The notes beneath the pieces were generated by a model that was not told where the DNA came from, made no database searches, and saw only the letters and a program-made list of their open reading frames with translations. Source: Pseudochryseolinea flava (lineage in GTDB: Bacteria; Bacteroidota; Bacteroidia; Cytophagales; Cyclobacteriaceae). Taken from it: DNA of 64,000 nt. Positions 249 to 48,462 of this stretch are shown piece after piece. Location: contig NZ_QMFY01000004.1 in NCBI RefSeq assembly GCF_003286915.1, positions 124,001 through 188,000 of the forward strand. The letters are read 5' to 3'. Numbering within the stretch: the first letter of the stretch is position 1; each line of letters begins with the position of its first letter. The translations under genes and the position numbers were made by a program.

Positions 249-3200
249 TTAATGTTTGATAAACTTGATCGTATGCGCACCGTCTGCACCTTCTAACTTC
301 ATTAAGTATAAGCCAGGTGCAAGCGAGGACACATCAATTGTCGTTAACTCTTGATTTACCTTTGTGATGCTAATCAGCTTGCCCGCGAGATCAACTATTT
401 TTGCTTCAGCACCCGAGGATGGAATTCTCGACACCGAAACATTCAATCTGTCCGCTGTCGGTACTGGATAAACCTTCACGCCGCCGAATATAGGTGTCTC
501 AATTTCTGTAACCATTTTGATAATCACTTTTACCGTTACTGATGCTGTTGCACCATTTTGATCTGTAACCGTGATCGTCACATTTGTTTCACCAGGCGTG
601 AGTGCTTTAAACCGAAGCTTGTTCATCGAGGCGAATATCTCAACCACGCTTTGGTCTGCCGCAACTGCCGACACACTTAGTATGTCGTCACTGTCCGCAT
701 CTGTGATGATCGATGACGTAGCAATGTCCAACGTAGCGCCATAGGCGACTTCGATATCGTCGGTGCTTACCACTACAGGCGTTCTATTGACATTATACAC
801 GGCCAATGCGATAAGCTTTGTATTGCTACGTTGCCCTGCATCTTTTGCAACGATCGAGAGATTCACTACGCCGGCAGATAAGAAATCGGGTGTATATGCA
901 AAGGCGATGCCGTCGCTGTTCTTTTCCCAAGTCATTCCTTCAGGAGCATCGTTTACTGCGTAGGAAATTTCATCACCTTCTGCATCAACAACAGGAACTG
1001 TGAATGTGAGCGTTTCGTTTTCGTCTACCCAGTAGCTATCATAGCCATTTACAAACTGAGGCGCTTGATTGAGGTGAAGATTCGCCGCGATGGTTTTCAT
1101 AGGTTCACCAATTGCATTACTGGCTACCGTAATGACGGCATGCGCATCTGCCCCATCCATGTTCACAGCTTTTGCTGTAAGCGTAAGGTTAGAAGAGGCA
1201 CCAGCTTCAATCACTCCGTTCGCCGCGTCATTAAGTACAAGCCAGTTTCCATCGACAAAGTTCTTCTCAAGTGCTTTCACAAACCAGCCTGCCTTTTTAA
1301 AACTAGGATCATCTGTTAAGTCAAACCAGACACCGGCGTCAGCCACGTAATATAAGAACGTGCCTCTGATCGGTTCTTCTGTTACAACCGTTCCTTGTGG
1401 GCTGTATGTTCCAAATGGATAACTCAACACCACGTAGAATGTTTCGCCTGGAAAGAAATGCAATGGCTTATCCAGTTGCAGTATCTGCGCCGTTTGAGTT
1501 TCTTTTGCAACATTAATTCCGAATGTCTTCGACGCTAACAAGGAAGACGACGAAAATGTATTGCCAATATATACTTCAGCTTTAATCGAGCTTACATCCA
1601 GATTACCAGAAGCATAATATGTCTGGATATCACTTAATGTAAATCCATCGTTCGGCACAGTGAATTTTGTGGCACCAACAAAAGCGGCGCCAGCACCAAA
1701 ACCGAGGTATGAATCAGCCTCGTTCGCATCACTGTATGCTAGCGTTCTGTTATATCCCGCAACACCCAAAACACCTGTCGCTGTTGACGGCGATGAAGCC
1801 ATAGCTCGTAACTTCGACGGATTACCACCGCTTACATTTTTCGGTAAATACGATGATGCAGATAATCCTTCCCGTTGATAAGCAACCGATAATGTATACT
1901 TCAATGTCGACTGGCCTGCCGTATTATCAATCTTGATTACGTCAGTTCCAACGAAATTTTTATCTGGCGCCTGGAAAGAAACCGACATCTTATCGATGCC
2001 CATTACAGCAGGTAATACGATCGTCGCTTCTACTGAAATGCTGTAGTCCCCATCAGCGTCATTGCTTTTGATCACGATTTCATCACGAAGAACTTCGTTC
2101 ATTCCAACGGCTGGTGCAATCTCGACTTTGAATTTTTGTGCGGCCTTAGGCGCAAGCGACAAGGACAATTCAGCTGGCACTACATCCCAATACTTTCCAA
2201 AAAATCCAGATACTTCCATCCACAGCGTGAAGTCTTCACCGCTTTCCAGTTTCATTGACATGATGTCAAGTGTGGCAGCACCGCTGTTTGACAGTTCAAA
2301 TTCTTGACTGAAAGTCGCAGTAGAAGCTTCCACCTCATGCGCAACGATCTCGCCAAAATTGAGCGACGCAGGCGCGGCGATCACAGCCTCTCCTATTACG
2401 GTTAAGGCCAAAGGAATATCCATCAATGTTTTTCCAGGCACGTTCGTGTGTAGCGTTAAATTGCCATCGTACGCTCCGGCAATCATATTTGCTGCATCTA
2501 CTTTCAATGAAAGATTTCTTGATTCGCCAGCAGGAACATCGATACGATTTGCCGGTGTCAGCACAATCGCAAGTTTATTCTCTATCAATTGCTGGTACGC
2601 GGCAATACGCACACCTTCCTCACCTGTTTCGTTCTCAACACCAATTACACCCGAGGTTGTGTATGAAAATCCACCCTCGACCTGATACTGATATTTGATG
2701 CTACCGTTCTTGTACAAGATAACCTCGTAGTTCCAAGGATCGCCCATACCGAATACGTTGTACACGTAAACAAATTCAATGACCACACGATCTTCAAACG
2801 TTTTAGCATACACCCCGTAGATATCATTATCCAAACTGTAGTATGCACCATTAGTCCAGAACGGCGCAATAAAGTTGTTTGGTTTTGCAACGTCTGGAAT
2901 TGAAGGCGATGTGAAGAACTCGGTTGTTTGATCAGGTGAGAACACTACTAACCCACGAGGGTTAACATAAATCTTATTGTACTCCTTTCCATAAAAAGTA
3001 AAGTTGAACGGAAGGTCAATTACTTTTTCTTCGTGTTGGCCTATCAGATCAAATTCCAGTTTAGTCTGCTTCGACATGATTTCTTCCCATTGATAAGCAG
3101 GACCACCCGATGAGGTACTTTTCGACCAAACGTAATCATACTTCGGTTGTTGAATACCTGGAGATGATGGACCTGTTTCGTTGGTCACATACGCCCATGA

Positions 3201-8006: not shown

Positions 8007-8528
8007 ATGAATAAGATCAAGCTTTACCAGTTTTATTTCCCGGCAATGCTTATCGCAGGCGTGATTGGATGTAACCGCCACGAAGCCCCCATGCACGCAT
8101 CTCTTGAAATCCCTAGTATTTCATTTGCGTCTAATCTTCGTGACTTTATTCCGGAGAAATCACTACAGCTCTTAAAGTATAATGGCAATATTGTGGGAGA
8201 AAAAATTGCGCATCCGGGTGTAGGTTACGTGAGCTACTTCGACTATCAAGCAAGTGAATCGGATGTCTTAACAATGTTAGCAACGCTTCCGTTTTCGAAG
8301 TATGCCATGGTCGCTGATACTACCGCGTATAAAATCGACCTTCGTTTCCTGGAACTGGAACGCACACAAGTTACTGCCGAAGAAATGGAAACGGCCTTTG
8401 ATTTTTGGAATGCTACCGCGGACGAATATACCGCGTACGAGTGCCGAAAATTCCCATGGAAACACACCGTGCTCGTGAACAATAGAACAAGAAGAGTATT
8501 GCATCGCATCGAATACAAACTAAGCTAA
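8007..8528 (+). CDS. Small lipoprotein of unknown function
   Basis: 173 residues if started at ATG 8007. A longer frame from a TTG at 7947 would put 20 residues before the signal peptide and is rejected. The N-terminus is a lipoprotein signal with lipobox VIGC (Cys22), so the protein should be membrane anchored in the periplasm or at the surface. The remainder is soluble, mixed alpha/beta, with no motif I recognise. It is convergent with the OPT transporter gene and shares a terminator hairpin with it. Function unknown. Confidence 0.75.
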   Translation: MNKIKLYQFYFPAMLIAGVIGCNRHEAPMHASLEIPSISFASNLRDFIPEKSLQLLKYNGNIVGEKIAHPGVGYVSYFDYQASESDVLTMLATLPFSKYAMVADTTAYKIDLRFLELERTQVTAEEMETAFDFWNATADEYTAYECRKFPWKHTVLVNNRTRRVLHRIEYKLS

Positions 8529-12369: not shown

Positions 12370-13983
12370 ATGTTAGAACTAGGATACAAAGCGCCCAGTG
12401 CGAGCGTTTGCTCTTTGGGCATTATGGAAGGTAAAGCGCATTGGAACCTGTCACCTGATCAACTCATCGCGCATGCACTCGAAAGAGAAAATGCCACACT
12501 CACCAACACAGGTGCCATCGCCATCGATACAGGCGAATTCACAGGCCGATCTCCAAAAGACAAGTTCACCGTGAAAGATTCACTCACTGAGCACGCCGTA
12601 TGGTGGAACAATTTTAACATCCCATTCGACTCAGCAAAATTCGAATCGCTTTATCAGAAGATGATCGCATATCTTAATGGCAAAGAGTTTTTTGTACGAG
12701 ATGCCATTGCCTGCGCCGATCCTCGTTATCAAATGAATGTTCGCGTCATCAACGAGTATGCGTGGTCAAATTTATTTGTCTACAACATGTTCCTCCGCCC
12801 TTCTGCTGAAGCGATTCAAACATTTTCCCCGGAGTGGACAATCATTAACGCACCAGGCTTTAAAGCAGATCCAACATTGGATGGAACACGTCAACATAAT
12901 TTCTCCATCATCGACTTCACACGTAAAATGATCTTAGTGGGTGGAAGCGGATATACAGGAGAAATTAAGAAAGGTGTATTCTCTGCCTTAAACTTTATAC
13001 TGCCGCATCAGAAAAATGTACTCGCGATGCACTGCTCAGCAAACATGGGCAACGCGGGTGACACAGCAATCTTTTTCGGACTTTCTGGAACAGGAAAAAC
13101 CACCCTATCGGCAGACCCTAATCGAAAATTGATTGGTGACGATGAACATGGTTGGACCGAAGACAATACAATTTTCAATTTTGAAGGTGGTTGCTATGCA
13201 AAAACGATCGACCTGTCAGAACAAAAGGAACCAGAAATTTATCAAGCTATCCGCCGCGGCGCTTTGCTTGAAAACATTGGCTTCAAGAAAAATTCAAATG
13301 AAGTAGATTACGCTGATGGAACACGTACAGAAAATACCCGCGTGAGCTATCCGATAGACTTCATCAGCAATATTGCGCAGCCGTCGCTTGGCAAGAATCC
13401 AAAGAACATATTTTTCCTCACCTGCGATGCCTATGGAGTACTGCCGCCTATCGCAAAACTTACACCTGGTCAAGCAGCATTTCATTTCATCTCGGGATAT
13501 ACGGCGAAGGTTGCCGGAACCGAAGCAGGCATTACAGAACCAACAATGACTTTCTCTGCATGCTTCGGCGCACCATTTATGCCTTTACATCCAACAAAAT
13601 ATGCGGAGATGTTAAGTCGTAAAATGAAAGAGGCGAAAGTAAATGTTTGGTTGATCAATACAGGTTGGTCTGGTGGCGCATACGGCGTGGGTAAACGGAT
13701 GAGTTTGACACATACACGTGCGCTGATCACAGCAGCATTGAACGGCGAACTCGACAATGTGGCTTACGAGCAACATGACATCTTCGGTGTGGCGATCCCT
13801 AAAACTTGCAACAACGTACCAAGCGAAATTTTAAATCCTCGAAATACATGGAAAGACAAAGATGCTTACGATCAAAAGGCGCACTACTTAGCTGAAGCAT
13901 TTTTGAAGAACTTTGAAAAATTTGCCTCTTATGCCAACGATGAAATCTTGGCCGGCGCGCCTACCGTGAAAGCGCACGTGTAA
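12370..13983 (+). CDS. pckA: Phosphoenolpyruvate carboxykinase (ATP)
   Basis: A 537-residue cytoplasmic enzyme converting oxaloacetate and ATP to PEP, CO2 and ADP, the first committed step of gluconeogenesis. The length is normal for the ATP-dependent family. Visible motifs are the substrate-binding TGRSPKDK (Arg60), the P-loop GLSGTGKTT (Lys243), and the metal/kinase-2 segment GDDEHGW (256-262). It stands alone: its promoter carries a dyad suited to regulation and a strong terminator follows. In Bacteroidota the enzyme often also works in the carboxylating direction, so the direction here is not decided by sequence. Confidence 0.98.
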   Translation: MLELGYKAPSASVCSLGIMEGKAHWNLSPDQLIAHALERENATLTNTGAIAIDTGEFTGRSPKDKFTVKDSLTEHAVWWNNFNIPFDSAKFESLYQKMIAYLNGKEFFVRDAIACADPRYQMNVRVINEYAWSNLFVYNMFLRPSAEAIQTFSPEWTIINAPGFKADPTLDGTRQHNFSIIDFTRKMILVGGSGYTGEIKKGVFSALNFILPHQKNVLAMHCSANMGNAGDTAIFFGLSGTGKTTLSADPNRKLIGDDEHGWTEDNTIFNFEGGCYAKTIDLSEQKEPEIYQAIRRGALLENIGFKKNSNEVDYADGTRTENTRVSYPIDFISNIAQPSLGKNPKNIFFLTCDAYGVLPPIAKLTPGQAAFHFISGYTAKVAGTEAGITEPTMTFSACFGAPFMPLHPTKYAEMLSRKMKEAKVNVWLINTGWSGGAYGVGKRMSLTHTRALITAALNGELDNVAYEQHDIFGVAIPKTCNNVPSEILNPRNTWKDKDAYDQKAHYLAEAFLKNFEKFASYANDEILAGAPTVKAHV

Positions 13984-36061: not shown

Positions 36062-36115
36062 TAATCAGGCGGGTATCGTTTTTAATTGTTTATATTGTTG
36101 AAAAATTTGCCGTTG

Positions 36116-36988
36116 ATGAGGAGTTTCAAAATACTCGTTTTTACTATTGTAACCTTTGCCCCGTTCTTTGCAGATGCACAGAGCTTCTTTGCCATACGAA
36201 GAAACAGAAATCTTCTTGTTGGATTAGGTTCAGGCACTGCTAACTACTACGGGGAGATGGTCAACCCTGGTGAATTTGGGATTATTAAACCCAATATTAC
36301 GGTGAGTGCTGAATATTATTGGCTACCTCGCATCAGCTCCAGGGCTCAACTGACATGGTTCCAATTTTCTGGAGATGATTCAAAAGCGGATGATGATAGA
36401 CGAGAAAGAAACTTGTCGTTCACGTCGAGTAATATCGAGTTAAGTGTGATTGGCGTGGTTCACCTCTCCCCTATGGGTACGCGATTTTATCAAAGATCGC
36501 CTCTTGACATCTACGGCTTTTTGGGGTTTGGCCTTTTGCGCTTTAATCCAAAAACCGTCGCACCTGACGGCGAAAAAGTAGCACTCGCTCCATTGCAAAC
36601 TGAAGGCGTAAAATACAGTCGCATCCAACCTGTCATTCCTGTTGGTTTAGGTGTGCGAGTTAAGGTTGATCCATTCTTTAATATACTCGTAGAAGGCGGA
36701 TACCGCCTAACATTCACAGACTATCTTGATGACGTCAGCATCAAGCGCTACCCTGATCCAGCGATACTCAGCAGTGATCTTGCGAGGGCACTGTCAGACC
36801 GAAGACCTGAAATCGGTACACAACCTGACAGACCCCAAGAAGTTGGTGTACGCGGTAATCCAGATGAAAACGATGGTTATTTTATTGCGAACATAACGCT
36901 GCAATACTACCTACCAACAGAAATTTTCAGAAGTTCACAACACAAGCTTTACCGATCAAAACGGAAATTCTGGAACAGACGCCGATAA
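36116..36988 (+). CDS. DUF6089-like outer-membrane beta-barrel protein
   Basis: 290 residues from ATG 36116; a TTG at 36086 would put 10 extra residues before a good signal peptide (ending FADA) and is rejected. The mature protein is rich in alternating beta strands. The early ANYYGEMVNP segment is like that of DUF6089 proteins of Bacteroidota, and the end is a barrel strand followed by a basic tail (KRKFWNRRR). No enzymatic motif. It follows sucC by 54 bp and is followed by a strong terminator. Confidence 0.75.
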   Translation: MRSFKILVFTIVTFAPFFADAQSFFAIRRNRNLLVGLGSGTANYYGEMVNPGEFGIIKPNITVSAEYYWLPRISSRAQLTWFQFSGDDSKADDDRRERNLSFTSSNIELSVIGVVHLSPMGTRFYQRSPLDIYGFLGFGLLRFNPKTVAPDGEKVALAPLQTEGVKYSRIQPVIPVGLGVRVKVDPFFNILVEGGYRLTFTDYLDDVSIKRYPDPAILSSDLARALSDRRPEIGTQPDRPQEVGVRGNPDENDGYFIANITLQYYLPTEIFRSSQHKLYRSKRKFWNRRR

Positions 36989-37226: not shown

Positions 37227-39128
37227 TTACCCCTGAGGCAGATCGAGAACCTCAAAACGAGAGTAGTTACTCTTGTACTCAGGAACAATCTCCTTCATGA
37301 GCGTCACCATCTTATGCTCATTCTTGTCGTTGATAAAATCCTCTAGTAGGTCTAAGTTTCGGCATACCTCATCATATTGATATTCGGAGACCTTTGCCTT
37401 TAAGATCTTTTCATTGTGTGTAGGAATCGTATTCTCTTGATCGTTCAGCAACTCTTCATAAAGTTTTTCTCCATCACGAAGCCCCGTAAATACAATCTCG
37501 ATGTCTTTATTAAGTTCCTTACCAGAAAGCATAACCATTTTTCTAGCGAGATCATAAATCTTGATCGGCTTGCCCATATCAAAGATGAAAATCTCACCTC
37601 CTCTACCCATTACACCGGCTTCAATTACCAACTCACATGCTTCAGGAATGGTCATGAAAAATCTCGTGATCTCAGGGTGGGTAACCGTAATCGGTCCACC
37701 TTTCATTAATTGCTCTTTAAATATAGGAATGACGGATCCATTCGAACCAAGTACGTTGCCAAAACGAGTTGTTACAAATGACGTATTCCCGAGGGCCAAT
37801 GAGCTATTGTATCCGTTCAGTGACTGCACGTAGATTTCCGCAATTCGTTTGGTGCATCCCATCACATTAGTTGGATTCACTGCCTTATCGGTAGAAATCA
37901 TGACGAATTTCTTAACCTTATGGCGCACTGCGGTATCTGCAAGATTCTTTGTCCCAAATATGTTAACCGCTACCGCCTCGGACGGATTGCTTTCCATCAT
38001 GGGAACGTGCTTATAAGCTGCGGCATGAAACACCATTTCTGGCTTAAAATCGTTGAATATCCTATCAATCCGCTCTTTATTACAGATATCAGCGATACAA
38101 ACAATCAATTTTGTTGGCAACCCCTTACTTCGTAGTTCACGCTCAATATCAAACAGTGGTGATTCTGCTTGATCAATGATAATCATTGTTGTTGGTCTAA
38201 ACGTGATTATTTGGCGTGCTAACTCAGAGCCAATAGATCCCGCTGCTCCGGTAATACAAATTACCTTTCCCTGGAGTGCATTCTGAATAGTCCCATTATT
38301 GAGTTTAATCACCTCACGCCCCAGCAGATCCTCAATGTTAATATCACGAATTTCCTTCACGTCGAAATCGTTCCGAAGCCACTTATCAAAAGACGTTACA
38401 TAGCTAACACGAACTCCATGCGCCAATGCCTCATCCACAATCTCATTCTTTCGGTCTATGGAAAGATTCTTTACGGCAATGACAAGTCTTTTGACTGCAT
38501 GCTTCTTGACGAGGTCATTTAGTTTATCTGAATTATAGATCTTCGTTCCGTTGATTTCTTTCCCATTCTTTTGGACATCATCATCCATAAATGCGACAAG
38601 TTTGTACGAGCTATGAAGATCCGCTTCAATCGCTTGCTTTGTAAGAAAACCTGCCACGCCGGCACCGAAAACCACCACAGGAACCGAAGTCCCAGAGTTC
38701 GTTTTATATAGTGTGAACAGATTCTTCACCAGAATGCGATATTGGTATAGCAACAAACTTGAAATGAAGAACGCGATGAAAACTACAGAGAAGGGTATGA
38801 CATTTTTCCCTGTATTGTAATAATACACGAGGTTTACAATTACAATCATCGACACGCTGAGCAACTCAGTTCTGATGATACGCAGACCATCTTGGATGCC
38901 AGTGTAACGGACGATCCCTGCGTAGCTTTTTGTAATTAACGTTGATGCAAAGGCGGCTACCATTGTCAGAATTATTCCTGACAGTGGCTTATATGAAATA
39001 ACCTCACTAATGTGAAAGTTGAAACGAAGAAGGAAGGCAAGGCAGACAGAGGTAAATATTAAGAACTGGTCGATTAAAATAACCACCCACCTCGGCAACA
39101 CCGTGAGCTTATTGAGCACTTTTACCAA
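37227..39128 (-). CDS. pglF: Membrane UDP-GlcNAc 4,6-dehydratase (PglF/WbpM/CapD type)
   Basis: 633 residues. Four membrane helices fill the first ~130 residues, then a CoA-binding-like Rossmann domain (about 148-240) and the short-chain dehydrogenase domain. NAD is bound at ITGAAGSIGSE (292-302). The active site is STDKAV (412-417) with Met423 and Lys427 in NVMGCTK, the Met-for-Tyr variant typical of WbpM/PglF. The product would be the UDP-4-keto-6-deoxy sugar used by the PglE-like aminotransferase at 43250-44374. No in-frame ATG exists upstream: the frame begins at TTG 39128, or GTG 39119. It is the last gene of the leftward glycan locus. Confidence 0.92.
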   Translation of the reverse strand: MVKVLNKLTVLPRWVVILIDQFLIFTSVCLAFLLRFNFHISEVISYKPLSGIILTMVAAFASTLITKSYAGIVRYTGIQDGLRIIRTELLSVSMIVIVNLVYYYNTGKNVIPFSVVFIAFFISSLLLYQYRILVKNLFTLYKTNSGTSVPVVVFGAGVAGFLTKQAIEADLHSSYKLVAFMDDDVQKNGKEINGTKIYNSDKLNDLVKKHAVKRLVIAVKNLSIDRKNEIVDEALAHGVRVSYVTSFDKWLRNDFDVKEIRDINIEDLLGREVIKLNNGTIQNALQGKVICITGAAGSIGSELARQIITFRPTTMIIIDQAESPLFDIERELRSKGLPTKLIVCIADICNKERIDRIFNDFKPEMVFHAAAYKHVPMMESNPSEAVAVNIFGTKNLADTAVRHKVKKFVMISTDKAVNPTNVMGCTKRIAEIYVQSLNGYNSSLALGNTSFVTTRFGNVLGSNGSVIPIFKEQLMKGGPITVTHPEITRFFMTIPEACELVIEAGVMGRGGEIFIFDMGKPIKIYDLARKMVMLSGKELNKDIEIVFTGLRDGEKLYEELLNDQENTIPTHNEKILKAKVSEYQYDEVCRNLDLLEDFINDKNEHKMVTLMKEIVPEYKSNYSRFEVLDLPQG

Positions 39129-39165: not shown

Positions 39166-39375
39166 TTAATCTTTTTGTTTTCTATTCCTTCTAAAGATAT
39201 TATATCCTCCGAGAGCACCGCCCGCAGCAATGAGCCATTCAATACCTGTGAAAGGCACCGGATCGCCTGGAGGATCTGGATCACCAGGTTGTGCCTGGAC
39301 AAGTACTGGCAGACACATGACGATCGCCATTACTAGCACATGAAAAAGGACCTTATGGTTACAACGGTTATTCAT
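39166..39375 (-). CDS. 69-residue protein with exosortase-type C-terminal sorting tail
   Basis: The whole protein is an export signal and a sorting tail. Residues 1-28 are a signal peptide (cleavage likely after VQA). A Pro/Gly/Asp-rich linker of about 12 residues follows. Then come PFTG (41-44), a short transmembrane stretch (45-61) and the basic end RRNRKQKD. That order (motif, helix, basic tail) is the design of PEP-CTERM-like exosortase substrates, and it resembles the small PID-CTERM proteins of Bacteroidota. Its ATG overlaps the stop of the giant T9SS gene in TAATG, so translation is probably coupled. The exosortase gene lies about 5.5 kb upstream in the same orientation. It may be a carrier or anchor for a glycan; this is inference. 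Confidence 0.8.
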   Translation of the reverse strand: MNNRCNHKVLFHVLVMAIVMCLPVLVQAQPGDPDPPGDPVPFTGIEWLIAAGGALGGYNIFRRNRKQKD

Positions 39376-42300
39376 TACTTCTTTATGATTTTAAGCGTAC
39401 TTCGACCCGTTTGGGTTACAAACATATTCAAAAAATAGATACCTGCAGGCATTCCCTCAAAATCAACCATAAGCATACCGCTGTTTCGCTGAACATTCAT
39501 CGATTTGGTTTGACCTAAATTATCAGTAATAGATACCGTTGTTCCCTCAAAGTTAGCAACTTTTACATACATGTATCGCTCAACAGGATTTGGATATGCA
39601 ACAATCGCACTTGCTTCCGATTCCGATTTCAATTGAATCTTGAATCGATCTGTTCGCGCTGTCGCCGGATCATTTGTGATGGTAAACGTATAGGGTTTAT
39701 CGAGTGAAACTATCGTATTCGTATACTGATCTATCAGGTAATAACTGTAGTCATCAAAATCACCATTCCGCTCTCCCAACGATAAAGTGTATTGTCGCGC
39801 TTCAAGGTCACGTATTCCGAGTGCAATAATCAAGTCGTTATCGACCGAATGCCGGGCATTAATGGCCATTGCAACCTTATCGTCGCTTAACGTGTACAAG
39901 TCAAATGCTTCATTATCCAATTTAGGAGCATCCAAATCATCGAGCGTGTTCTGCGATTCAGACCTAAGCTTGACAAAAGCTTTATCCGTTAACACCCCGT
40001 CACTCAACAGGATTGGCAAAGTACTCACGACTATTGGCGTAGGTGGCGTCGTGTCTTCCCTGTAAAACTCGCCAGCAGTATTCGCTGTAATCACTTTTGC
40101 ATTTTCTGTGATACGAAGCACTGGATTTGCAGCCGTGGCCCTAACCCAAAATGCTTGTCCCTGAGCAATTCGACCATTGGTCAAATCGCCAGAAGTTCCG
40201 TCCCAATAACGCATCATTCCCCCGGCGCCGTTGTCGCGCACAGAAATGATGGGAGAAATTCTAGTCTTCGCCCAGCCCATGTCCCAATCGATTGTACATG
40301 GATACGGATTTCCGATAAGGTTATAACCATCGGCCGTAGCGTCGCCAGTGTTCGTATATGTTAAAGAATACGTAAATGTACCTTGGTTAATCGGTCCTGT
40401 GACGTCGATAATCGTTGGACTATCACAACGTCGTATAAATGCCGCATAGCCTCTACCAACAACCAACGGATTACTTGCCGAAATACCCACCGTTGGGTAT
40501 GCTACATAACCTTGATCCACATTTCCTGGAGGTGTTTCATCGTAGTAATATAACGATGGCTGAGTTTTGATAAATGAAAAACCACAAGAAGCAGAGCCGT
40601 TGCTTGGGTTGGAAAATGTCCCCGTGATTGGAAAGTCATCTTGCCACGACGCTACCGTTGCATTGGTAACTGGAGAGCTGATATACCGATAAATCCTTCC
40701 TTCTCCACTCATGAACCTCTGGACAGTTACGTCTCCTGTAACAGTGTTTGTACCCAAGCGATAAATTTGAGAGGTCCCCGGCGCCGTTGCTGTCCCTTCT
40801 GCGTCGCTCGTTGAGATGAGCGTTAAGAAACCGTTTGATTGAAAATTACAATTGGCCGTAGGCGATACAAAATTCAAATAACCGATCAATCCAGTTGGTC
40901 CCGTCAGTTGAACGTTGCCACCAGATTTTGAAATTGTAAGATTAAAGAAATTCGATCCCCCGGCCGACACGGTTTGGAGTGCAGCACCGTTCAATATTGT
41001 CGTGGTTGTCGATGGGGCAAAAGTACTTCCAGTTGCAAATGCAATATTTCCTGAAACATTCAAATTGACAACGGTCGACAACGATGCCGTGTTTGTCGCG
41101 GCGATGTTCGCAAAAACCGCTGTACTTGTCCCGGAAATGGCCGTTGTTCCATCAAATGTCACGGTGCTCGTTCCAGGTATGAAATTTCCTGCATTATCGA
41201 TCCAACTTGCGCCACGCATCCGTATTGCATGCGTGGATCCCTGCAACACACCGCGTGTAAACGTTACCACACCGTTAATTGTAAGATCTTGTGAAAGTTG
41301 AAGTATATCCGTTGATTGATTTGTATTTATTGTCAGACTTCCCAACGCATTAAGCTCAGAAGGTGAAGGAAGTTCTAATCCCGTACTAAAAGTGGCTGGA
41401 CTTCCTGCAACACTTGTGGTTCGATATATCACATTAAAAGCATCGGTTGGACCGTGTAATGCACGCGCACCTAAAAGTTGAGCTGTGGGCCAGCGTGACA
41501 CAGTAGCACCCGCAGCGAGTGTCAACCCTGATGCGTTGTTAGCATCTCCGTTCACCAAATTTAACTGCGATGTAATGGTCACCGCGCTGTTAATACCGAT
41601 CGCAGCGCCTGCGCCAGTTCTATTAAGCGTTAAGACGCCTAGTACATTGTTTGATACGCCGAATGGAAGTGTCCCGAAATTTCCTCCTGATGTGCCTCCG
41701 ACTACCACGACGGAGTTGCCATCGCCTCCAAGCACGCCACCTATAGAAGAGATGGTGCCATTCAGGTTAAGTCGTCTGTTTCCAATGAACAACTGACCGC
41801 TTCTCAACTCTAAATGTCCTGCAATGGTCATTTGTGCGGTCGTTCCCTGAAACAACGACACGCCGTTGGGATTATCGATAACGGTGGTGACATCAGCGGT
41901 TGCCGGCTGGCCATCGCCCATAAATTGAGCACTAGCACTCCGATAAATTATCATTGACCCAGGAGAAAAAACACGCAAGGTATTGGTTGTTCTTATATTT
42001 CCGAGCGTGGTCGAATTCCGGATCGCTCCTGTCGGTTCAGTAGACCCAACAATGAGCGTTCCATCAAGAATAAAGTTTGCGCCTGAACTTGATAAGGGAT
42101 AGATCGAAACATCAAGAATTGTCGCGGCACTGATATAGTAGTTTATCCTATTAATAACAGACCCCGTATTTACAAATGTAGTTGCACCCGCGCGAAGGAA
42201 TCGAAGGTTACCTGATGCTGTACTGCCACCAGACTCGGTAATTTGTCCTGATGTTAGGTTAAAATTGCCATTGAGGTTGAATGTTGACGTGCCCGTAGAT

Positions 42301-43178
42301 CCGCTCGATCCCGCCATAAAAATCCGACCTCCAGGCGCGTTCATATTAAAATCACCGGCAAGGTTAATCGTAAAACTTCCGATGTTTGTAAGTAAAGAGC
42401 CGTTTACATTGGTGGACGTGAAATTAAAATTTCCTCCAATGTCCAATACTCCCCCGGCGCTTGTGGTCGAAAAGTTAAATCGTGCCGTGCCTGCAATTGA
42501 AAAATTACCATCCACATCAAAAGCCACGTTACTTTGACCGATTGTGAGTTGCGTAAAGCTTGTCCCTGTGCTTAAAACAGAAAAATCACCGTTAACATCA
42601 GTGATCAATCCATTGAAATTTACGGTGCTGCGCTGAAGGGTACAGTTATAAACAAAATTGCCATACGTCTGACTCCAAGCTGTTGATGTAAAGTTTAGTA
42701 TGGAGAGGTTGGTATATCCTTCAATGATAAAGTTTGAGGTCGTCGCCCACGTGGCAACCAGCGGAATACCTTCCGTTGCCGTATAACGATGACGATAGGT
42801 AGATGCTGCACCAAAAGTAACAGTAGCGCCCGTCTGAGTGACCGTTGCCAAATTCCCCATTATGAATTCGCCATTGACGACCAATGTATTGCCCGGATTG
42901 ATTAACAAATCTGTTCCAGCGCCATTGGACAGTGACAAAGAGCCGCCGTTGGCGATTGTAAGGGCCGCATTAGCAATCACCTCGTCAACTGTCACAGCGT
43001 AACCGTTCGGAATGGTTACTGCATGATTTAATGTAATCACCCCTGCTGTCGAAGTCGGGCTCACACCCGTGCTCCAAACTGTGGGATCATCCCAGGTACC
43101 CGCCTTGATGGTATTTACTTGGGCATGTAGGTGCAGAGAGAGGGTAAAAAGAATTAAAGCCAGCGATAGTTTCTTCAT
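39375..43178 (-). CDS. Giant secreted beta-helical protein with T9SS sorting domain
   Basis: 1267 residues from ATG 43178. The open frame extends to 43331, but only this start yields a signal peptide (MKKLSLALILFTLSL to HAQ). The body is Ser/Thr/Asn/Gly-rich with repeated NGNFN/NGDFS-type strands, as in right-handed beta-helices. Then comes a region typical of T9SS cargo (GYNLIGNPYPCTIDWD). The last ~75 residues are a T9SS type A sorting domain (VAYPNPVERYMYV, ending TLKIIKK). It should be exported across the outer membrane and anchored or released. It is encoded inside the diNAcBac/exosortase gene group and overlaps the sorting-tail gene. Confidence 0.92.
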   Translation of the reverse strand: MKKLSLALILFTLSLHLHAQVNTIKAGTWDDPTVWSTGVSPTSTAGVITLNHAVTIPNGYAVTVDEVIANAALTIANGGSLSLSNGAGTDLLINPGNTLVVNGEFIMGNLATVTQTGATVTFGAASTYRHRYTATEGIPLVATWATTSNFIIEGYTNLSILNFTSTAWSQTYGNFVYNCTLQRSTVNFNGLITDVNGDFSVLSTGTSFTQLTIGQSNVAFDVDGNFSIAGTARFNFSTTSAGGVLDIGGNFNFTSTNVNGSLLTNIGSFTINLAGDFNMNAPGGRIFMAGSSGSTGTSTFNLNGNFNLTSGQITESGGSTASGNLRFLRAGATTFVNTGSVINRINYYISAATILDVSIYPLSSSGANFILDGTLIVGSTEPTGAIRNSTTLGNIRTTNTLRVFSPGSMIIYRSASAQFMGDGQPATADVTTVIDNPNGVSLFQGTTAQMTIAGHLELRSGQLFIGNRRLNLNGTISSIGGVLGGDGNSVVVVGGTSGGNFGTLPFGVSNNVLGVLTLNRTGAGAAIGINSAVTITSQLNLVNGDANNASGLTLAAGATVSRWPTAQLLGARALHGPTDAFNVIYRTTSVAGSPATFSTGLELPSPSELNALGSLTINTNQSTDILQLSQDLTINGVVTFTRGVLQGSTHAIRMRGASWIDNAGNFIPGTSTVTFDGTTAISGTSTAVFANIAATNTASLSTVVNLNVSGNIAFATGSTFAPSTTTTILNGAALQTVSAGGSNFFNLTISKSGGNVQLTGPTGLIGYLNFVSPTANCNFQSNGFLTLISTSDAEGTATAPGTSQIYRLGTNTVTGDVTVQRFMSGEGRIYRYISSPVTNATVASWQDDFPITGTFSNPSNGSASCGFSFIKTQPSLYYYDETPPGNVDQGYVAYPTVGISASNPLVVGRGYAAFIRRCDSPTIIDVTGPINQGTFTYSLTYTNTGDATADGYNLIGNPYPCTIDWDMGWAKTRISPIISVRDNGAGGMMRYWDGTSGDLTNGRIAQGQAFWVRATAANPVLRITENAKVITANTAGEFYREDTTPPTPIVVSTLPILLSDGVLTDKAFVKLRSESQNTLDDLDAPKLDNEAFDLYTLSDDKVAMAINARHSVDNDLIIALGIRDLEARQYTLSLGERNGDFDDYSYYLIDQYTNTIVSLDKPYTFTITNDPATARTDRFKIQLKSESEASAIVAYPNPVERYMYVKVANFEGTTVSITDNLGQTKSMNVQRNSGMLMVDFEGMPAGIYFLNMFVTQTGRSTLKIIKK

Positions 43179-43249
43179 GCGTATATTCTCAAAATCACTC
43201 CAAAAAATAGAATCAAAACTTAATGCTTCCCAATTCGAAAATGTAACCG

Positions 43250-44374
43250 TTAATGGGATAATAGTGAATGAATTACGTCCGCAACGCGCTGCAATTCCTC
43301 CGTGGTCATATTCGAACCTGAAGGTAAGCATATACCTTCATTAAATAAGCGTTCTGAAGTGCCATTTGTGTATGCCGGACATCCTTCAAAAATTGGCTGG
43401 AGATGCATCGGCTTCCACAGCGGTCTACTTTCGATATTTTCACGCTCCAATTTTAGCCTCATATCTTCACGTGATATCCTTCCTTTGATTACAGCCGTGG
43501 TCAGCCAACGGTTTGAATAAAACCCTTGAGGTTCAGATAAAAATTGGATTTCCCGACGGTCCGCAAACGCATTCCTGTAAAAATCATAATTTTTACGTCG
43601 CTGGGCAACGCGTTCGTCCAGCACCAGCAATTGACCACGTCCGATGCCCGCCAGAATGTTGCTTAGGCGGTAATTATATCCGATATGAGAATGCTGATAG
43701 TGTGGAGCAGCGTCTCTTGCTTGTGTCGCCAAAAAGCGCGCTTTTTCGATCCAAGCTGTATTTCTGGATACTAAAGCGCCGCCCCCAGAAGTTGTAATGA
43801 TCTTATTTCCGTTGAAAGAGTAAATTCCAAGATCGCCAAATGTACCGAGTGCCTGCCCGAAGTATTTAGAACCTAACGCTTCCGCGGCGTCCTCCACGAC
43901 CGGAACTTCGTATTTTCGAGCTACCTCTAAGATCTCTTTGATTTTTGACGGCATCCCATAAAGGTGAACCAAAATGATGGCTTTCGGCTTTTTACCGCGC
44001 TTGATTCGATCCGCTATAGCTTCCTCTAAAAGCACTGGATCCATGTTGTACGTATCCGCTTCGGAGTCAACAAAAATTGGTGTTGCTCCCTGATACCGGA
44101 TCGGATTACATGATGCCGAAAATGTGAATGAAGAACAAATGACCTCATCCCCTGCTTCTACTCCTAATACGATCAAGGCCAAATGAATGGCGGCAGTGCC
44201 GGATCCGAGCGCAGCACATGCGTCGATTTTATTATACATCGCTAATTCGCGTTCAAAAGCGGTGATGTTCGGTCCCACGGTAGATACCCAATTGGTATCA
44301 AATGCTTCTTTTACAAAATCTGCTTCACGCGTGCCCAAATGTGGCGATGAGAGGTATATCTTCGGTTTTTCCAT
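43250..44374 (-). CDS. pglE: DegT/DnrJ-family aminotransferase, PglE-like
   Basis: 374 residues, PLP-dependent sugar aminotransferase. PLP lysine is Lys191 in SFNGNKIITTSGGG, with Asp162 in VVEDAAEALGS. Many stretches match what I remember of Campylobacter PglE (LSSPH at the start, ETRPLWK-like ESRPLWKPMH, GICLPSG at the end). PglE aminates UDP-4-keto-6-deoxy-GlcNAc at C4. The PglF, PglD and PglC relatives in the same locus support this role. It follows the exosortase partner gene by 95 bp. Confidence 0.9.
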   Translation of the reverse strand: MEKPKIYLSSPHLGTREADFVKEAFDTNWVSTVGPNITAFERELAMYNKIDACAALGSGTAAIHLALIVLGVEAGDEVICSSFTFSASCNPIRYQGATPIFVDSEADTYNMDPVLLEEAIADRIKRGKKPKAIILVHLYGMPSKIKEILEVARKYEVPVVEDAAEALGSKYFGQALGTFGDLGIYSFNGNKIITTSGGGALVSRNTAWIEKARFLATQARDAAPHYQHSHIGYNYRLSNILAGIGRGQLLVLDERVAQRRKNYDFYRNAFADRREIQFLSEPQGFYSNRWLTTAVIKGRISREDMRLKLERENIESRPLWKPMHLQPIFEGCPAYTNGTSERLFNEGICLPSGSNMTTEELQRVADVIHSLLSH

Positions 44375-44469
44375 AATCGAGTGCGAAGTACGGGATTCAC
44401 ATTATCAAAAAAAAACTTTGTGCAGGCAGGAAATTCATCTCAAGGTCAATCTGCTTCAATGCCAAGAGT

Positions 44470-44874
44470 TTATTTAGCGGCTTGACGCTCTTGAATAAAA
44501 AAAGCCGGAATAAGAATCAGCATTAACAATGGATTTACAATCAGCCGATGCAGGTACGAAACCAGTGGCCCATTGTAGGTTGGAAAATTCAGTTTCAGAA
44601 TAAAATAAGGGAGTAAGAATAGAACGACCCCGATTACTTGAACATAAAAAGCGAAAATCACAAAGTTTCTTTTGACAAAAAGTGCATAGATTAATCCGAT
44701 CATTAGGAGATCATTCAAAATATAGCGGATCGCTTTATTGGCTAAGAAAATTCTCACGTCTGACCCTCCTCCCGCAATCTTCAGGAATGCGGCGTGTTGG
44801 AACAGAAACGTACAACACAATCCTGCTACGCATAGAATGCCAATGAATACGCGCAACGATTTAGTTGGGTTCAT
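44470..44874 (-). CDS. Exosortase-associated membrane protein (XrtF/XrtX-associated type)
   Basis: 134 residues with about four membrane helices. The late segment HRLIVNPLLMLILIPAFF and the internal RYILNDLLMIGLIYALF resemble the small membrane protein consistently found beside XrtF/XrtX exosortases in Bacteroidota. Its role is unknown; it is thought to help the exosortase. Its start overlaps the end of the exosortase gene by 14 bp, so the two are surely co-expressed. Confidence 0.82.
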   Translation of the reverse strand: MNPTKSLRVFIGILCVAGLCCTFLFQHAAFLKIAGGGSDVRIFLANKAIRYILNDLLMIGLIYALFVKRNFVIFAFYVQVIGVVLFLLPYFILKLNFPTYNGPLVSYLHRLIVNPLLMLILIPAFFIQERQAAK

Positions 44875-45403
44875 GCTTTAGCTTTTTGTTGACACGTAGC
44901 CAAATAAACCAGAGCAAAAAAATAGCACCATACACGAGGGCCGTAAGTAAGTACTTATGAAAGAAATAAAGATTGTGGGGATAGTCTCTGGATATAAAGA
45001 ATAAAAGACCGATGCGAAATAAATTGATTGCATGGATTAGGAGAATGCCCCCTGGTACGAACCACCACATTTTCCTATTGAATTCTCCGATAGCCACAGT
45101 GAACGCGAGAAATACGATCATCACATTAAACCCGTTACAACCTTCAAATACGCTTACAATCGGTCTATCCTGGCGGATCACAACGGAGGGGCTAGTGGAA
45201 CTTGGATAGCATGACACGGGAGAAGCGATCACATCAATGATCGCCGTCGTTTGATTTGTAACAAACACAGTGATTGGATCTGCCGCAGGGTGGTAAGTTG
45301 TAATGAACGTCCCGTAGAGTAAATTGCCAAGAAGATAAACACCCAGGAATTTCCCTATAAAAAAAATCGTCGGCTTAAAATCTTTCCAATGAAATGCGGC
45401 CAT
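44861..45403 (-). CDS. Exosortase family protein (Bacteroidota XrtF/XrtX-like)
   Basis: 180 residues with about five membrane helices, the compact form seen in Bacteroidota. The three catalytic residues of exosortases are present: Cys89 in VFEGCNGFN, Arg130 in HAINLFRIG and His149 in YFFHKY. Exosortases are transpeptidase-like enzymes that cleave C-terminal sorting tails at the membrane. The flanking glycan genes, the overlapping partner protein and the sorting-tail protein at 39166-39375 make a complete local system. Which exosortase subtype it is needs a profile search. Confidence 0.9.
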   Translation of the reverse strand: MAAFHWKDFKPTIFFIGKFLGVYLLGNLLYGTFITTYHPAADPITVFVTNQTTAIIDVIASPVSCYPSSTSPSVVIRQDRPIVSVFEGCNGFNVMIVFLAFTVAIGEFNRKMWWFVPGGILLIHAINLFRIGLLFFISRDYPHNLYFFHKYLLTALVYGAIFLLWFIWLRVNKKLKHEPN

Positions 45404-45426: not shown

Positions 45427-46062
45427 TCATTTTTTCAAGATGCTTTTCGCTGGAACACCAACAACTGTTTTGCCGGGCAAGACATTTTCCAGCACAACCG
45501 CCCCTGAACCGACAACAGCGTCATCTCCAATACGAATGCGATTCAAGATGTTTGCACCACTTCCAATCATCACCGCTGATGCAATTTCGACTTGACCGGC
45601 AATATTCACACCCGGCATCACCGAAGTGAAATCTCCGATGACGGCATCGTGTCCAACCGTTGCATTTAAATTTATCAGGACGTGCTGGCCCACCCGAATC
45701 GATGTAGTCAAAATGCTGCCTGCTGTAATAATTGTTCCTCGCCCAACATCAATTGTACTTGCATCACAAAGAACCGCGCGTGGATGAATGATGGTAACAA
45801 ATTCGATGTTTGTATTCTGTTTAATTTTATTAACGATATCACGTTTGATTAACGGATTTCCTATTGCAACAACGACTGACGCCGCCTTGAGCGTTTCTAA
45901 ATATTTCGTATCACCCAATATTGGAGCCCCCATTACAGTAGTACCGACAGGCACGTGATCATCGCAAAATCCCGACACATTCCATTCTGGCAAAACATCG
46001 ACGATGGTTTTAACTTCGCGTCCAAGTCCTCCGGCTCCGAAAATAATGAGTGATTTTTTCAT
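45427..46062 (-). CDS. NeuD-family sugar O/N-acetyltransferase
   Basis: 211 residues. The N-terminal PglD-like nucleotide-sugar-binding part (FGAGGLGREV) is followed by a left-handed beta-helix of hexapeptide repeats (from about 95), ending VVGVPAKSILKK. It belongs to the NeuD/PglD family that acetylates amino sugars or sialic-acid-type sugars. It overlaps the preceding PglD-like gene by ATGA. Two family members side by side suggest two different acetylation steps; which one is the real PglD cannot be settled here. Confidence 0.88.
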   Translation of the reverse strand: MKKSLIIFGAGGLGREVKTIVDVLPEWNVSGFCDDHVPVGTTVMGAPILGDTKYLETLKAASVVVAIGNPLIKRDIVNKIKQNTNIEFVTIIHPRAVLCDASTIDVGRGTIITAGSILTTSIRVGQHVLINLNATVGHDAVIGDFTSVMPGVNIAGQVEIASAVMIGSGANILNRIRIGDDAVVGSGAVVLENVLPGKTVVGVPAKSILKK

Positions 46063-46676
46063 TTCGGCTCATTGAATTTAAGAACCCGCGCAGGGTTACC
46101 AGCGATGATGGCATAGTCAGGTACATCACGTACAACGACAGCCCCTGCTCCTGCAACCACGCCCTTACCGATTTTTATCTTGGGTCGTACAACAGCATTC
46201 GCACCAATAAGTGCTCCCTCTCCTATTTCTACCCCCCCACAGAGTACTGCGGATGGCGCAATGTGAACATAGTCACCGATCACGCAGTCGTGATCTACTT
46301 GACTTCCCGTATTTAGAATAACATGTTTCCCTATTACCGCGCCCGCTTGAACAATTGCACCGTGCAACAGCATACTCCCTTCACCAATTGTAGCATATTG
46401 AGAACAGATTACTGAAGGATGTTGTGCGATGAAATAGCGATGTTTCACTTCATGTCGTGCAATTCGTTCGCGAACTGCGTTATCGCCGATTGCAATAATC
46501 ACCGGCACGTCGGTATGCAATGCAGATTGATAGTTTCCTAGACAGGTTAATCCCAATAAGTTACCTTGATGGGGATCGAAGAACCCTTTCACAATAGTTC
46601 CCTGTGACTGCAAACAGTCCGCGACAACTTTGGCATGTCCACCACCGCCTACTAGTATAACTTCAGTTATTGCCAT
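46059..46676 (-). CDS. pglD: PglD-like UDP-amino-sugar N-acetyltransferase
   Basis: 205 residues with the PglD N-terminal GGGGHAKVV motif, catalytic-type His in QVDHDCVIGD, hexapeptide beta-helix and the end IIAGNPARVLKF. PglD uses acetyl-CoA to acetylate the 4-amino group and so completes UDP-di-N-acetylbacillosamine. Its start lies within the end of the PglC-like gene (14-bp overlap), the same pairing as in known diNAcBac loci. Confidence 0.85.
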   Translation of the reverse strand: MAITEVILVGGGGHAKVVADCLQSQGTIVKGFFDPHQGNLLGLTCLGNYQSALHTDVPVIIAIGDNAVRERIARHEVKHRYFIAQHPSVICSQYATIGEGSMLLHGAIVQAGAVIGKHVILNTGSQVDHDCVIGDYVHIAPSAVLCGGVEIGEGALIGANAVVRPKIKIGKGVVAGAGAVVVRDVPDYAIIAGNPARVLKFNEPK

Positions 46677-47268
46677 CGAATTTTCTCATCGTTACAGAAC
46701 CTTCACCGCTTATCCCTTCTGCTTTAAACACTTTTATCACCGTTAAAAATAACACTTTAATATCGATCAAAAATGATATATGCTCAACATACCAAACGTC
46801 GTAAGCAAACTTTTGCTGCCACGAAAGTGCATTTCTACCATGCACCTGAGCCCAACCTGTAATGCCCGGTTTTACATCGTGCCTGCGTTTTTGTTCCGTC
46901 GAATAAAGCGGAAGATACTCAACCAGCAACGGTCGGGGTCCAACAATTGACATATCGCCCATCAACACATTTAACATTTGAGGGATTTCATCAAGTGATG
47001 TCTTCCGAATGAATTCTCCCACTGGTGTGAGACGCTCTGCGTCTGATAAAAGATTCCCTTGTGAATCCTTTTTATCATTCATGGTTTTAAACTTGAACAC
47101 CGTGAAAACTTTCCCCTGGTATCCAGGACGCGCCTGTCTAAAGAAAATCTTACCTCGATTATATATTGATAATAATATGACTACCGGCAATGTCACTGGT
47201 AAACTCAGCAAGAGCACAATGATGGCAACGAGTTTATCAAAAAAGACTTTAACAATAGTTTTATACAC
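46663..47268 (-). CDS. pglC: Monotopic phosphoglycosyl transferase, PglC-like
   Basis: 201 residues, the compact form of the family. A re-entrant N-terminal helix (about 8-36) is followed by the catalytic core with Asp93-Glu94 in TSLDEIPQ, MSIVGPRP and KPGITGWAQVHGRN. The end, RKFDGNN, is strikingly like that of Campylobacter PglC. The enzyme moves the first phospho-sugar (diNAcBac-1-P in PglC) to undecaprenyl phosphate and so starts the glycan. It overlaps the pglD-like gene. Confidence 0.92.
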   Translation of the reverse strand: MYKTIVKVFFDKLVAIIVLLLSLPVTLPVVILLSIYNRGKIFFRQARPGYQGKVFTVFKFKTMNDKKDSQGNLLSDAERLTPVGEFIRKTSLDEIPQMLNVLMGDMSIVGPRPLLVEYLPLYSTEQKRRHDVKPGITGWAQVHGRNALSWQQKFAYDVWYVEHISFLIDIKVLFLTVIKVFKAEGISGEGSVTMRKFDGNN

Positions 47269-47301: not shown

Positions 47302-48462
47302 CTATTGCTGTTGATTGTATGCTTCTAAAAGCTTTGACCAAACATAGCTTTGGTCAAAATTTTCTTTTACAAATGCGCGTGCTTTTTTTCCAAATTGCTT
47401 TCGAACATCAGGATTATCCGATAGCTGCTTCATCGCGTCAAACAGGGGTTCATGTTTTTTCACAGGAACAATGAAACCTGTTTCGTTGTGCGCGATTATT
47501 TCATTACAACCATTGATATCCGAAACGATGCACGCTACTTCGAGACAACATGCCTGCATCACAACATTTGGAAAGCCTTCGCGATAGCTGGGAAACACAA
47601 ATATATCAGACGCAACAACGTAAGGTCTAACATCCGATTGGAATCCCACGTGGATTATATCTTTGTTATCCTTCAAAATCTCTTGACTTTTTTGTGTGAT
47701 TGGATCGAGCTCTGGCTCAAAATGTCCGACCAGAATAAGCTTTGCTTTCGTTTGCTTCGACACGCGATCGAAAGCAATCAACAACTCTTCAATACCTTTA
47801 TCATTGACAATTCGACCAACAAAAGAAAATGTCGTCCACGAACTATCGATACCATACTGCTCACGAATAATCGCCGCTTTAGATTCTAAAGTCTCGTTTC
47901 GACAGAAAAAATTTACATCTATACCATTGCTACTTCCCCTACCAATCACCTCCAATTTCAACGCAGAAACGGAAATATTCTCGTCTATGAATTTTTTCAA
48001 TCCATACGAATTCGGATAGACTTTGTGCGCACAACGGTAAGTCAACCATTCCGTAAACAAGAGTAATTTTCTTTTGAACCCTTGTGTTTCCATAAGCGGA
48101 AGTCCAGCGACCGTATGTAGGCGAAGGGGAACGCGACACAGAAAAGCCGCCATCATTCCTAAAAGCCCTGCCTTCGGTGTATGTGTATGAACAATGTCTG
48201 GCCGATACTTTCTCATCAATTTCCAAAGGGCGAACAATGAAGCTAGATCCTGAAACGGAGAAATAATTCTTGACATCGGTACCACTACGTGCGACACGCC
48301 CTCGTTGTGGATTACATCTGTTCGCTCTTTCCCATCAGCACTTACCGCGAGCACATCGAAACCTTGTTGCTGCATAAACCGCATTTGCCCTTTGATCAAA
48401 ACTTTCAAAGAAATTGGTACGGTAGTGATACGAAGTAGTTTCCTTTTATTTTCCATTGCCAA
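47302..48462 (-). CDS. Glycosyltransferase family 4
   Basis: 386 residues, GT-B fold. The donor-binding end has the E-x7-E pattern in FVFPSYREGFPNVVMQACC, and the nucleotide region FVGRIVNDKGIEEL precedes it. The first half (HTHTPKAGLLGMMAA) is typical of EPS transferases close to PglA-type enzymes. Its start overlaps the deacetylase gene by 17 bp. A second ATG at 48456 is a possible start. It probably adds the second sugar after PglC; the sugar is unknown. Confidence 0.9.
   Translation of the reverse strand: MAMENKRKLLRITTVPISLKVLIKGQMRFMQQQGFDVLAVSADGKERTDVIHNEGVSHVVVPMSRIISPFQDLASLFALWKLMRKYRPDIVHTHTPKAGLLGMMAAFLCRVPLRLHTVAGLPLMETQGFKRKLLLFTEWLTYRCAHKVYPNSYGLKKFIDENISVSALKLEVIGRGSSNGIDVNFFCRNETLESKAAIIREQYGIDSSWTTFSFVGRIVNDKGIEELLIAFDRVSKQTKAKLILVGHFEPELDPITQKSQEILKDNKDIIHVGFQSDVRPYVVASDIFVFPSYREGFPNVVMQACCLEVACIVSDINGCNEIIAHNETGFIVPVKKHEPLFDAMKQLSDNPDVRKQFGKKARAFVKENFDQSYVWSKLLEAYNQQQ

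Follow-up and report, generated by a model that had tools for sequence, protein, structure and literature searches.

An XrtF exosortase locus of Pseudochryseolinea flava with a 69-residue candidate substrate gene overlapping a giant type IX secretion gene

The XrtF locus and its small protein

The subject of this study is an exosortase locus on a 64,000-nucleotide (nt) stretch of Pseudochryseolinea flava DNA (assembly GCF_003286915.1, contig NZ_QMFY01000004.1, positions 124,001–188,000, forward strand), hereafter called the window. An earlier reading of its sequence (the original prediction) had described a complete small system of exosortase, partner membrane protein, and 69-residue substrate. 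Its coordinates were all correct when re-read on the window sequence. The genes of the cluster lie on the minus strand. Sugar genes (48462 down to 45427) come first in the direction of transcription, followed by the exosortase, the TIGR04127 partner, a DegT aminotransferase, a giant cargo protein of the type IX secretion system (T9SS), the 69-residue protein, and a polysaccharide dehydratase. The following are results of computation: the assignment of the enzyme to its family, its catalytic residues, the co-occurrence, the change of the motif with the enzyme, and the gene pairing. The central features are the following.

44861..45403, minus strand: exosortase XrtF, 180 amino acids (aa); TIGR04128, 119.2 bits (cut-off 90)
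45137–45139, 45014–45016, and 44957–44959, minus strand: codons of XrtF Cys89, Arg130, and His149, placed by arithmetic
44470..44874, minus strand: exosortase F system-associated membrane protein, 134 aa; TIGR04127, 48.0 bits (cut-off 35)
39375..43178, minus strand: giant T9SS type A cargo, 1267 aa; TIGR04183, 38.0 bits (cut-off 23), and PF18962, 30.5 (cut-off 27)
39166..39375, minus strand: 69-aa candidate mini-substrate, based on the list of open reading frames (ORFs), a tail-profile match (E = 6.5e-11), and conservation in the genus
39244..39255, minus strand: codons of the PFTG motif, placed by arithmetic

The score against TIGR04128 identifies the exosortase as XrtF, and the enzyme also matches Pfam PF09721 (27.8 bits, cut-off 25.7). 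The XrtX model NF046081 gave 108.4 bits, under its cut-off of 170; the cut-offs and the tree together rule out XrtX or XrtY. In the tree of 122 exosortases, the window's enzyme, 17 relatives, and 29 flavobacterial XrtF proteins form one clade of 47 rows with a support of 100/99. The alignment was restricted to ORFs of 130–320 aa, and 121 of 126 regions yielded an exosortase. Cys89, Arg130, and His149, which we take to be the catalytic residues, are invariant in all 122 aligned sequences. The original prediction of an exosortase with these three residues and of a partner membrane gene overlapping it by 14 bp is borne out; profile searches of 44861–45403 and 44470–44874 both gave scores over the family cut-offs. 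The XrtF system of Flavobacterium johnsoniae (Fjoh_1448/1449) is alike in its enzyme family, in the adjacent TIGR04127 partner, in scores over both cut-offs, and in belonging to the same clade. However, in the window a candidate target is encoded within the gene run itself, and its motif is PFTG and not PIDG.

The 69-residue protein consists of a signal peptide to about Ala28, a 12-residue linker (residues 29–40, QPGDPDPPGDPV), the motif P41-F-T-G44, a hydrophobic stretch at about 45–60, and a basic tail at 61–69 (FRRNRKQKD), with boundaries placed by eye. Once both signals are removed, about 12–15 residues are left. No NCBIfam model matched the protein over its cut-off (best TIGR04200, 13.9 against 40), and neither did any Pfam model. 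A tail profile, A1, was built from 30 of 43 seed tails, and its P4 and G7 are invariant in 30/30. It gave the match listed above, which is the only one in the genome at E ≤ 1e-4; a second, weak match (E = 0.0099) was disregarded. All six other genomes of the genus that were searched encode a 63–68-aa protein with PITG directly downstream of a 1368–1597-aa T9SS protein, and the mini-gene sits between the T9SS gene and a 633–672-aa gene, as in the window. A chance ORF is ruled out because, counting the window's own genome, seven genomes of the genus were searched and all have a similar gene at this position.

Small tail proteins and their exosortases

Three genome sets were searched: an order sample of 194 genomes, 59 relatives, and a phylum sample of 296, with some genomes in more than one. 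From the order genomes, 80 regions of up to 20 kb were taken, 79 around TIGR04128 matches and one at a small protein of genome G018. Small proteins of the same plan, sought with a regular expression and then a profile (E < 0.01), were present in 42 of 81 regions, window included. Many order genomes without a mini-gene in the exosortase region carry one elsewhere.

TIGR04128 matched 70 of the 194 order genomes at E ≤ 1e-3, 20 of them over the cut-off; the others have exosortases of other or unsettled type. A1 matched 66 order genomes at E ≤ 0.01 and 63 at E ≤ 1e-4. Three genomes between these thresholds (G047, G155, and G160) were dropped; two of them are without an exosortase, with hits in 522- and 145-aa frames. 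At the stricter threshold, 62 of the 63 tail genomes have an exosortase, 8 genomes have an exosortase only, and 123 have neither. The window protein as a single query found 12 of the 194 genomes at E < 1e-3, all with an exosortase, and at E ≤ 1 it found 76, many by chance. Among the relatives, A1 (E ≤ 1e-3) matched 28 genomes and TIGR04178 matched 32; all 28 tail genomes have an exosortase, and 27 genomes have neither. One relative (G207, 83% complete) has TIGR04127 with no match to A1 or TIGR04178. In the phylum sample, by our reading of the two hit tables, the 51 genomes with A1 (E ≤ 1e-3) all fall within the 90 with TIGR04128. Across the three samples, tail proteins thus occur together with exosortases in 62/63, 28/28, and 51/51 genomes. 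The curated PID-CTERM model alone gave matches in 3 of 19 relatives.

Copy number varies. Genome G206 has one exosortase match and 12 mini-protein matches, a many-to-one arrangement, and the five copies that were read stand behind proteins of 753–2631 aa (loci L235–L238). In locus L136 (genome G088), a tandem duplication holds two identical 71-aa mini-proteins (8207–8422 and 12573–12788), two T9SS proteins of about 1050 aa, and two near-identical exosortases. Locus L251 has two different mini-proteins in tandem (6076–6264 and 6296–6499), 31 nt apart and without a T9SS neighbour.

For size and gene context, 130 unique small genes were compared, each with at least 1000 nt of upstream sequence. 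Their products range from 56 to 140 aa (median 71), and the linker between the two signals has a median of 13 and a range of 4–61 residues (127/130 proteins, by a rough rule). The description of the substrate as almost only a sorting tail holds for all 130 loci and not for the window alone. Mini-proteins as the ends of larger PEP-CTERM-like proteins are ruled out, as none of the 130 exceeds 140 aa; some tail matches do lie in longer open frames, e.g., one of 557 aa (E = 4.5e-4) and one of 248 aa (E = 1e-8). PEP-CTERM/EpsH-type systems are alike in their three-part C-terminal signal, in an integral membrane enzyme with Cys, Arg, and His, and in exopolysaccharide loci. PEP-CTERM cargo, in contrast, is mostly full-size protein with many members per genome, whereas every cargo in the 130 loci is a mini-protein.

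The third residue of the motif differs between enzyme types. Outside the XrtF clade, the region of 39 of 75 tree rows includes a motif, always with Asp or Glu, and that of the other 36 does not. Inside the clade, Thr, Ser, Gln, or Gly replaces Asp/Glu in 16 of 18 non-flavobacterial rows (exceptions G018 and G217). The comparison was repeated within the taxonomic family of the window, where a non-Asp motif occurs in 17 of 18 XrtF genomes and in none of 7 with other exosortases (Fisher p = 1.7e-5). Fifteen of these 17 motifs have Thr or Ser, G210 has Gln, and G213 has Gly; the exception is G217. Genome G222 was assigned to XrtF because TIGR04127 lies next to its exosortase gene, and G009, G206, and G227 to the non-XrtF group because they lack TIGR04127; the enzymes of these four are not in the tree. 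Because the motif differs by exosortase type within one family, the sequences indicate that it tracks the enzyme and not the species.

The window protein has the three-part tail of the PID-CTERM type (P-x-x-G, helix, basic end). PID-CTERM (NF046080), which is tied to XrtX and XrtY, resembles it in its small size, signal peptide, short hydrophobic stretch with conserved glycines, and basic tail, and the two align in A1. The window protein, however, is one residue shorter between the Pro and the glycines and has Thr for Asp. It gave no match to NF046080 at E ≤ 10. Of nine other XrtF-clade mini-proteins tested, eight scored under the cut-off or gave no match, and only that of locus L228, with PIDG, passed (27.1 against 26); the control L112 passed easily. 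A literature search for PID-CTERM returned no paper.

Most flavobacterial XrtF genomes (>200 bits) have no A1 hit; each of five weak hits that were inspected proved to be a small protein built alike. A second profile, A2, was made from seven proteins, two of them from other groups, and was run on 121 Flavobacterium genomes. TIGR04128 was found in 104 of these (103 over the cut-off, G600 under it) and A2 (E ≤ 0.01) in 102. Both occur in 96 genomes, XrtF only in 8, A2 only in 6, and neither in 11 (Fisher p = 4.8e-7); the nine XrtF-negative genomes at 99% completeness have no A2 hit. Twenty A2 sites were read, one of them (L332) from an XrtF-negative genome, and each encodes a small protein with signal peptide, linker, motif, hydrophobic stretch, and basic end. 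The motifs include PIDG, PIDQ, PIDS, and PLDG, with looser cases in L328 (AIDQ), L326 (PIND), and L329 (PINQ). These proteins are candidate XrtF targets. The MKNLKAPF type, or a near relative, is carried by 25 loci, 24 labelled Flavobacterium and one labelled Flavobacteriaceae; F. johnsoniae is not among them. In three such loci inspected by eye, the mini-gene is beside riboflavin synthase-like and pdxA-like genes, and an epimerase-like text motif occurs in the gene upstream in 14 of the 25. No mini-gene was found beside flavobacterial xrtF in 29 loci of about 3.5 kb with an expression that demanded Gly at the fourth place and misses PIDQ types.

Pairing with giant type IX secretion proteins

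The gene upstream of the mini-gene in the window encodes a giant T9SS protein. Its ORF is open from 43331, with a likely start at 43178 and its end at 39375, and its type A tail taken alone raises the TIGR04183 score to 42.4 bits. At the joint, TAATG, the TAA stop of the giant gene and the ATG start of the mini-gene have one base in common.

A T9SS gene just upstream of the mini-gene is common. In 112 of the 130 loci, a same-strand ORF of at least 150 aa ends within 400 nt upstream of the mini-gene (30 of these ORFs are cut by the end of the stretch), and 78 of the 112 carry a T9SS tail by our own model, built from 51 tails. As a check, 103 distinct upstream neighbours with 250 aa or more were taken and their last 90 residues scanned against NCBIfam; 87 matched TIGR04183 at E ≤ 0.01, which is looser than the curated cut-off. 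Over the same 121 regions, our tail model matched 55 of 78 adjacent genes; among the remaining genes with products of at least 150 aa, it matched 31 of 1439. The gap between T9SS gene and mini-gene has a median of 21 nt; it does not exceed 10 nt in 34 of the 78 pairs, and in 14 the two genes overlap. Of the complete T9SS partners, 54 of 55 have at least 800 aa. The bodies of the four giants scanned differ, with a sub-threshold G8 hit in that of the window and Ig-like or HYDIN-like domains in the others. The constant parts of the gene pair are the T9SS tail and the mini-gene. The gene-level link between exosortases and the T9SS is strong, and the original prediction had missed it.

In loci L247, L248, and L249 (genomes G174, G191, and G199, of one genus), the upstream gene encodes a protein of 828 aa (650 aa in the truncated stretch), which is rich in Gly and Tyr near the C-terminus and has no T9SS tail by our own model.

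Porphyromonas T9SS type A cargo with PorU-dependent anchoring is comparable to the coupled giant protein in its TIGR04183 tail. The window differs in having a second sorting signal on a separate, overlapping small gene, and no pair of a T9SS cargo gene with such an overlapping gene turned up in the literature searched.

Possible role of the small protein and surroundings of the locus

That the 69-residue protein is a dedicated target, as originally predicted, is well supported by its co-occurrence with exosortases, its single copy in the genome, and the change of the motif with the enzyme type. We consider it fairly probable that it is a dedicated XrtF substrate whose short surface peptide serves the coupled giant T9SS protein. 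The small protein would be made in step with the giant protein through translational coupling at the TAATG overlap. Its architecture suggests that it is exported by Sec and loses its signal peptide, while the C-terminal helix and basic tail would hold it in the inner membrane. The reaction expected of an exosortase, as also described in PMC7468200 and PMC12188702, is to cut its substrate at the motif and pass it on to an acceptor. By exosortase theory and gene context, XrtF and its TIGR04127 partner would thus cut at P-F-T-G and attach the end so formed to an acceptor; this would probably be a glycan or lipid from the surrounding polysaccharide genes. The remaining Pro/Gly/Asp-rich peptide of about 12–15 residues may be a surface partner of the giant protein, such as a tether, a cap, or an assembly tag. 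Both the cleavage and the surface role are what we infer, and it is the tight coupling of the mini-gene to the T9SS gene that suggests the latter.

Several observations weigh against this interpretation. Concerning co-occurrence, one of the 124 exosortase-negative order genomes, G100, has the tail, in a small gene that borders the end of a contig of 3 kb. Within the order sample, 8 of the 70 genomes with an exosortase (G048, G119, G142, G157, G158, G160, G169, and G194) have no mini-protein detectable by A1; the same holds for 4 of 32 among the relatives (G209, G212, G013, and G029) and for 39 of 90 in the phylum sample, many of them flavobacterial, a group in which A1 has low sensitivity. Of the 17 XrtF-negative Flavobacterium genomes, 6 have an A2 hit nonetheless, those six being 76–96% complete, and 8 of 104 XrtF-positive genomes have none, including G530, G596, and G626 (99–100% complete). 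Apart from G100 and the six Flavobacterium genomes, the protein is not spread among genomes that lack an exosortase, an outcome that would have refuted the original prediction had it been otherwise. The tail profile was built from proteins beside exosortases, which biases the positive side of the counts; the genomes are related, so the p-values overstate the associations. As to the pairing, 25 of the 130 loci lack an upstream neighbour of at least 250 aa on the same strand within 400 nt, a further two have a neighbour in common, and no T9SS tail was seen in 16 of the 103 neighbours scanned. T9SS pairing was seen in none of the 11 flavobacterial loci counted, and in those read, the mini-gene is beside neither XrtF nor a T9SS cargo gene. 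T9SS pairing as a rule for all Bacteroidota is rejected by these loci. Finally, no experiment showing cleavage of a mini-protein was found in the literature searched.

Part of the same evidence can be read differently. The mini-protein may be an exosortase substrate whose peptide is an attachment point for the polysaccharide of the locus, with the T9SS protein merely co-regulated. The pair stands inside sugar genes in the window and in loci L066, L068, and L069, and linkers of such short median length are mostly too short for a folded domain. However, no sugar gene is evident by eye near the mini-gene in L077 and L082, where the T9SS neighbour stays; L112 has a glycosyltransferase-like gene 3 kb away. 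In three flavobacterial loci inspected, the mini-gene is beside housekeeping genes. The surrounding glycan locus fits the role proposed in the original prediction, that of a glycan anchor or lipid-like carrier, but the most constant neighbour of the mini-gene is the giant T9SS protein, and we regard such a carrier as unlikely.

Still less probable, in our judgement, is that the exosortase cut frees a short Pro-rich peptide that acts as an extracellular signal or matrix part and anchors nothing. The stretch between the two signals is indeed peptide-sized by the rough rule used for the 127 proteins, and many copies per genome occur, such as the 12 in G206. The linker sequence, however, varies even between named species of one genus, which is unsuited to a recognised signal, and the tight pairing with T9SS cargo is left unexplained. 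We give an equally low probability to a small tail-anchored membrane subunit that works for the T9SS protein or the exosortase and is never cleaved. Single helices with basic tails are common, and the literature searched gave no cleavage of the mini-protein family, yet a substrate would be expected to show what is seen here, namely a tight P-x-x-G motif, occurrence together with exosortases, and a motif that changes with the type of enzyme.

A broader proposal, which we put forward as speculative and rather improbable, is that two sorting systems meet here. An exosortase-made conjugate of peptide with glycan or lipid would hold or join the co-translated giant T9SS protein, this would be a widespread class of anchor in Bacteroidota, and Fjoh_0651 of F. 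johnsoniae would be its first member shown to matter. Data on F. johnsoniae bear both on the main interpretation and on this one. Deletions of xrtF and of its partner lose biofilm, zorbs, and sand colonisation, according to PMC10936215. Deletion of Fjoh_0651, a hypothetical gene with no COG, has the same effects there, and the table in that paper gives the same seven entries for deletions of Fjoh_0651, xrtF, the partner Fjoh_1449, porU, porZ, and the aminotransferase gene Fjoh_0334. The fragment complementing Fjoh_0651 comprised only 434 bp with the promoter (PMC10936215); therefore, the protein is small. That Fjoh_0651 is a mini-substrate is a guess, and a literature search for this gene and its neighbours gave nothing beyond that paper. 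The phenotype common to these six genes is unspecific and weighs against our interpretation. Biofilm formation by F. johnsoniae needs the T9SS (PMC8444969). Together with the phenotype common to xrtF and porU, this is consistent with a T9SS partnership, but the evidence is indirect because the Flavobacterium loci read show no T9SS gene pairing. Two papers touch on both systems: PMC7468200 notes VimA-like chemistry common to exosortase and T9SS, and in PMC10936215 genes of both were found in one screen.

The enzyme and the general plan of its targets are already known, and a PID-CTERM model exists. As far as our searches show, three points are new: the proteins proposed as XrtF targets, the very small size that marks this entire class of cargo, and the pairing of mini-genes with T9SS genes; no description of mini-substrates or of the pair of mini-gene and T9SS gene was found in the literature searched, which leaves most subscription papers outside. 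XrtF is an exosortase with a loss phenotype measured in F. johnsoniae, and the present work supplies a concrete class of candidate targets for it; its targets were described as not yet known in 2025 in PMC12188702, and PMC10936215 likewise treats them as not yet known.

The remaining genes of the cluster and its flank are listed below.

43250..44374, minus strand: DegT/DnrJ/EryC1 sugar aminotransferase, between the partner and the giant gene; PF01041, E = 3.9e-96
37227..39128, minus strand: polysaccharide biosynthesis NDP-sugar dehydratase/epimerase, directly downstream of the mini-substrate gene; PF02719, E = 1.9e-118
45427..46062, minus strand: NeuD/PglB-type sugar acetyltransferase; TIGR03570, 194.9 bits (cut-off 160.8)
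46059..46676, minus strand: second NeuD/PglB-type sugar acetyltransferase; TIGR03570, 206.3 bits (cut-off 160.8)
46663..47268, minus strand: polyprenyl glycosylphosphotransferase, C-terminal catalytic part only (profile positions 254–443); TIGR03025, 246.8 bits, below the cut-off of 295.55
47302..48462, minus strand: glycosyltransferase; TIGR03088, 126.1 bits, below the cut-off of 409.05
36086..36988, plus strand: PorG-like T9SS protein, flanking the cluster; NF052316, 89.3 bits, below the cut-off of 130

A gene similar to the PorG-like one was seen by eye at the same flank of the cluster in L066, L068, and L069. At 249–7703 on the minus strand, the window also encodes a 2484-aa T9SS type A protein with choice-of-anchor D domains and a part that resembles subtilases; the one strong A1 match in this genome lies elsewhere.

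The same genome carries a second exosortase system on contig C46 (locus L002, 149–997 and 940–2400), in which XrtN (TIGR04476, 329.4 bits, cut-off 200) is beside a VIT-domain target (TIGR04477, 313.6, cut-off 250) whose C-terminus has VPEPHEW and a helix. This pair resembles the XrtF system in joining an exosortase to one adjacent dedicated target. It differs in that the XrtN target belongs to a family of large proteins (a model of 822 positions) and the XrtN enzyme has 486 aa.

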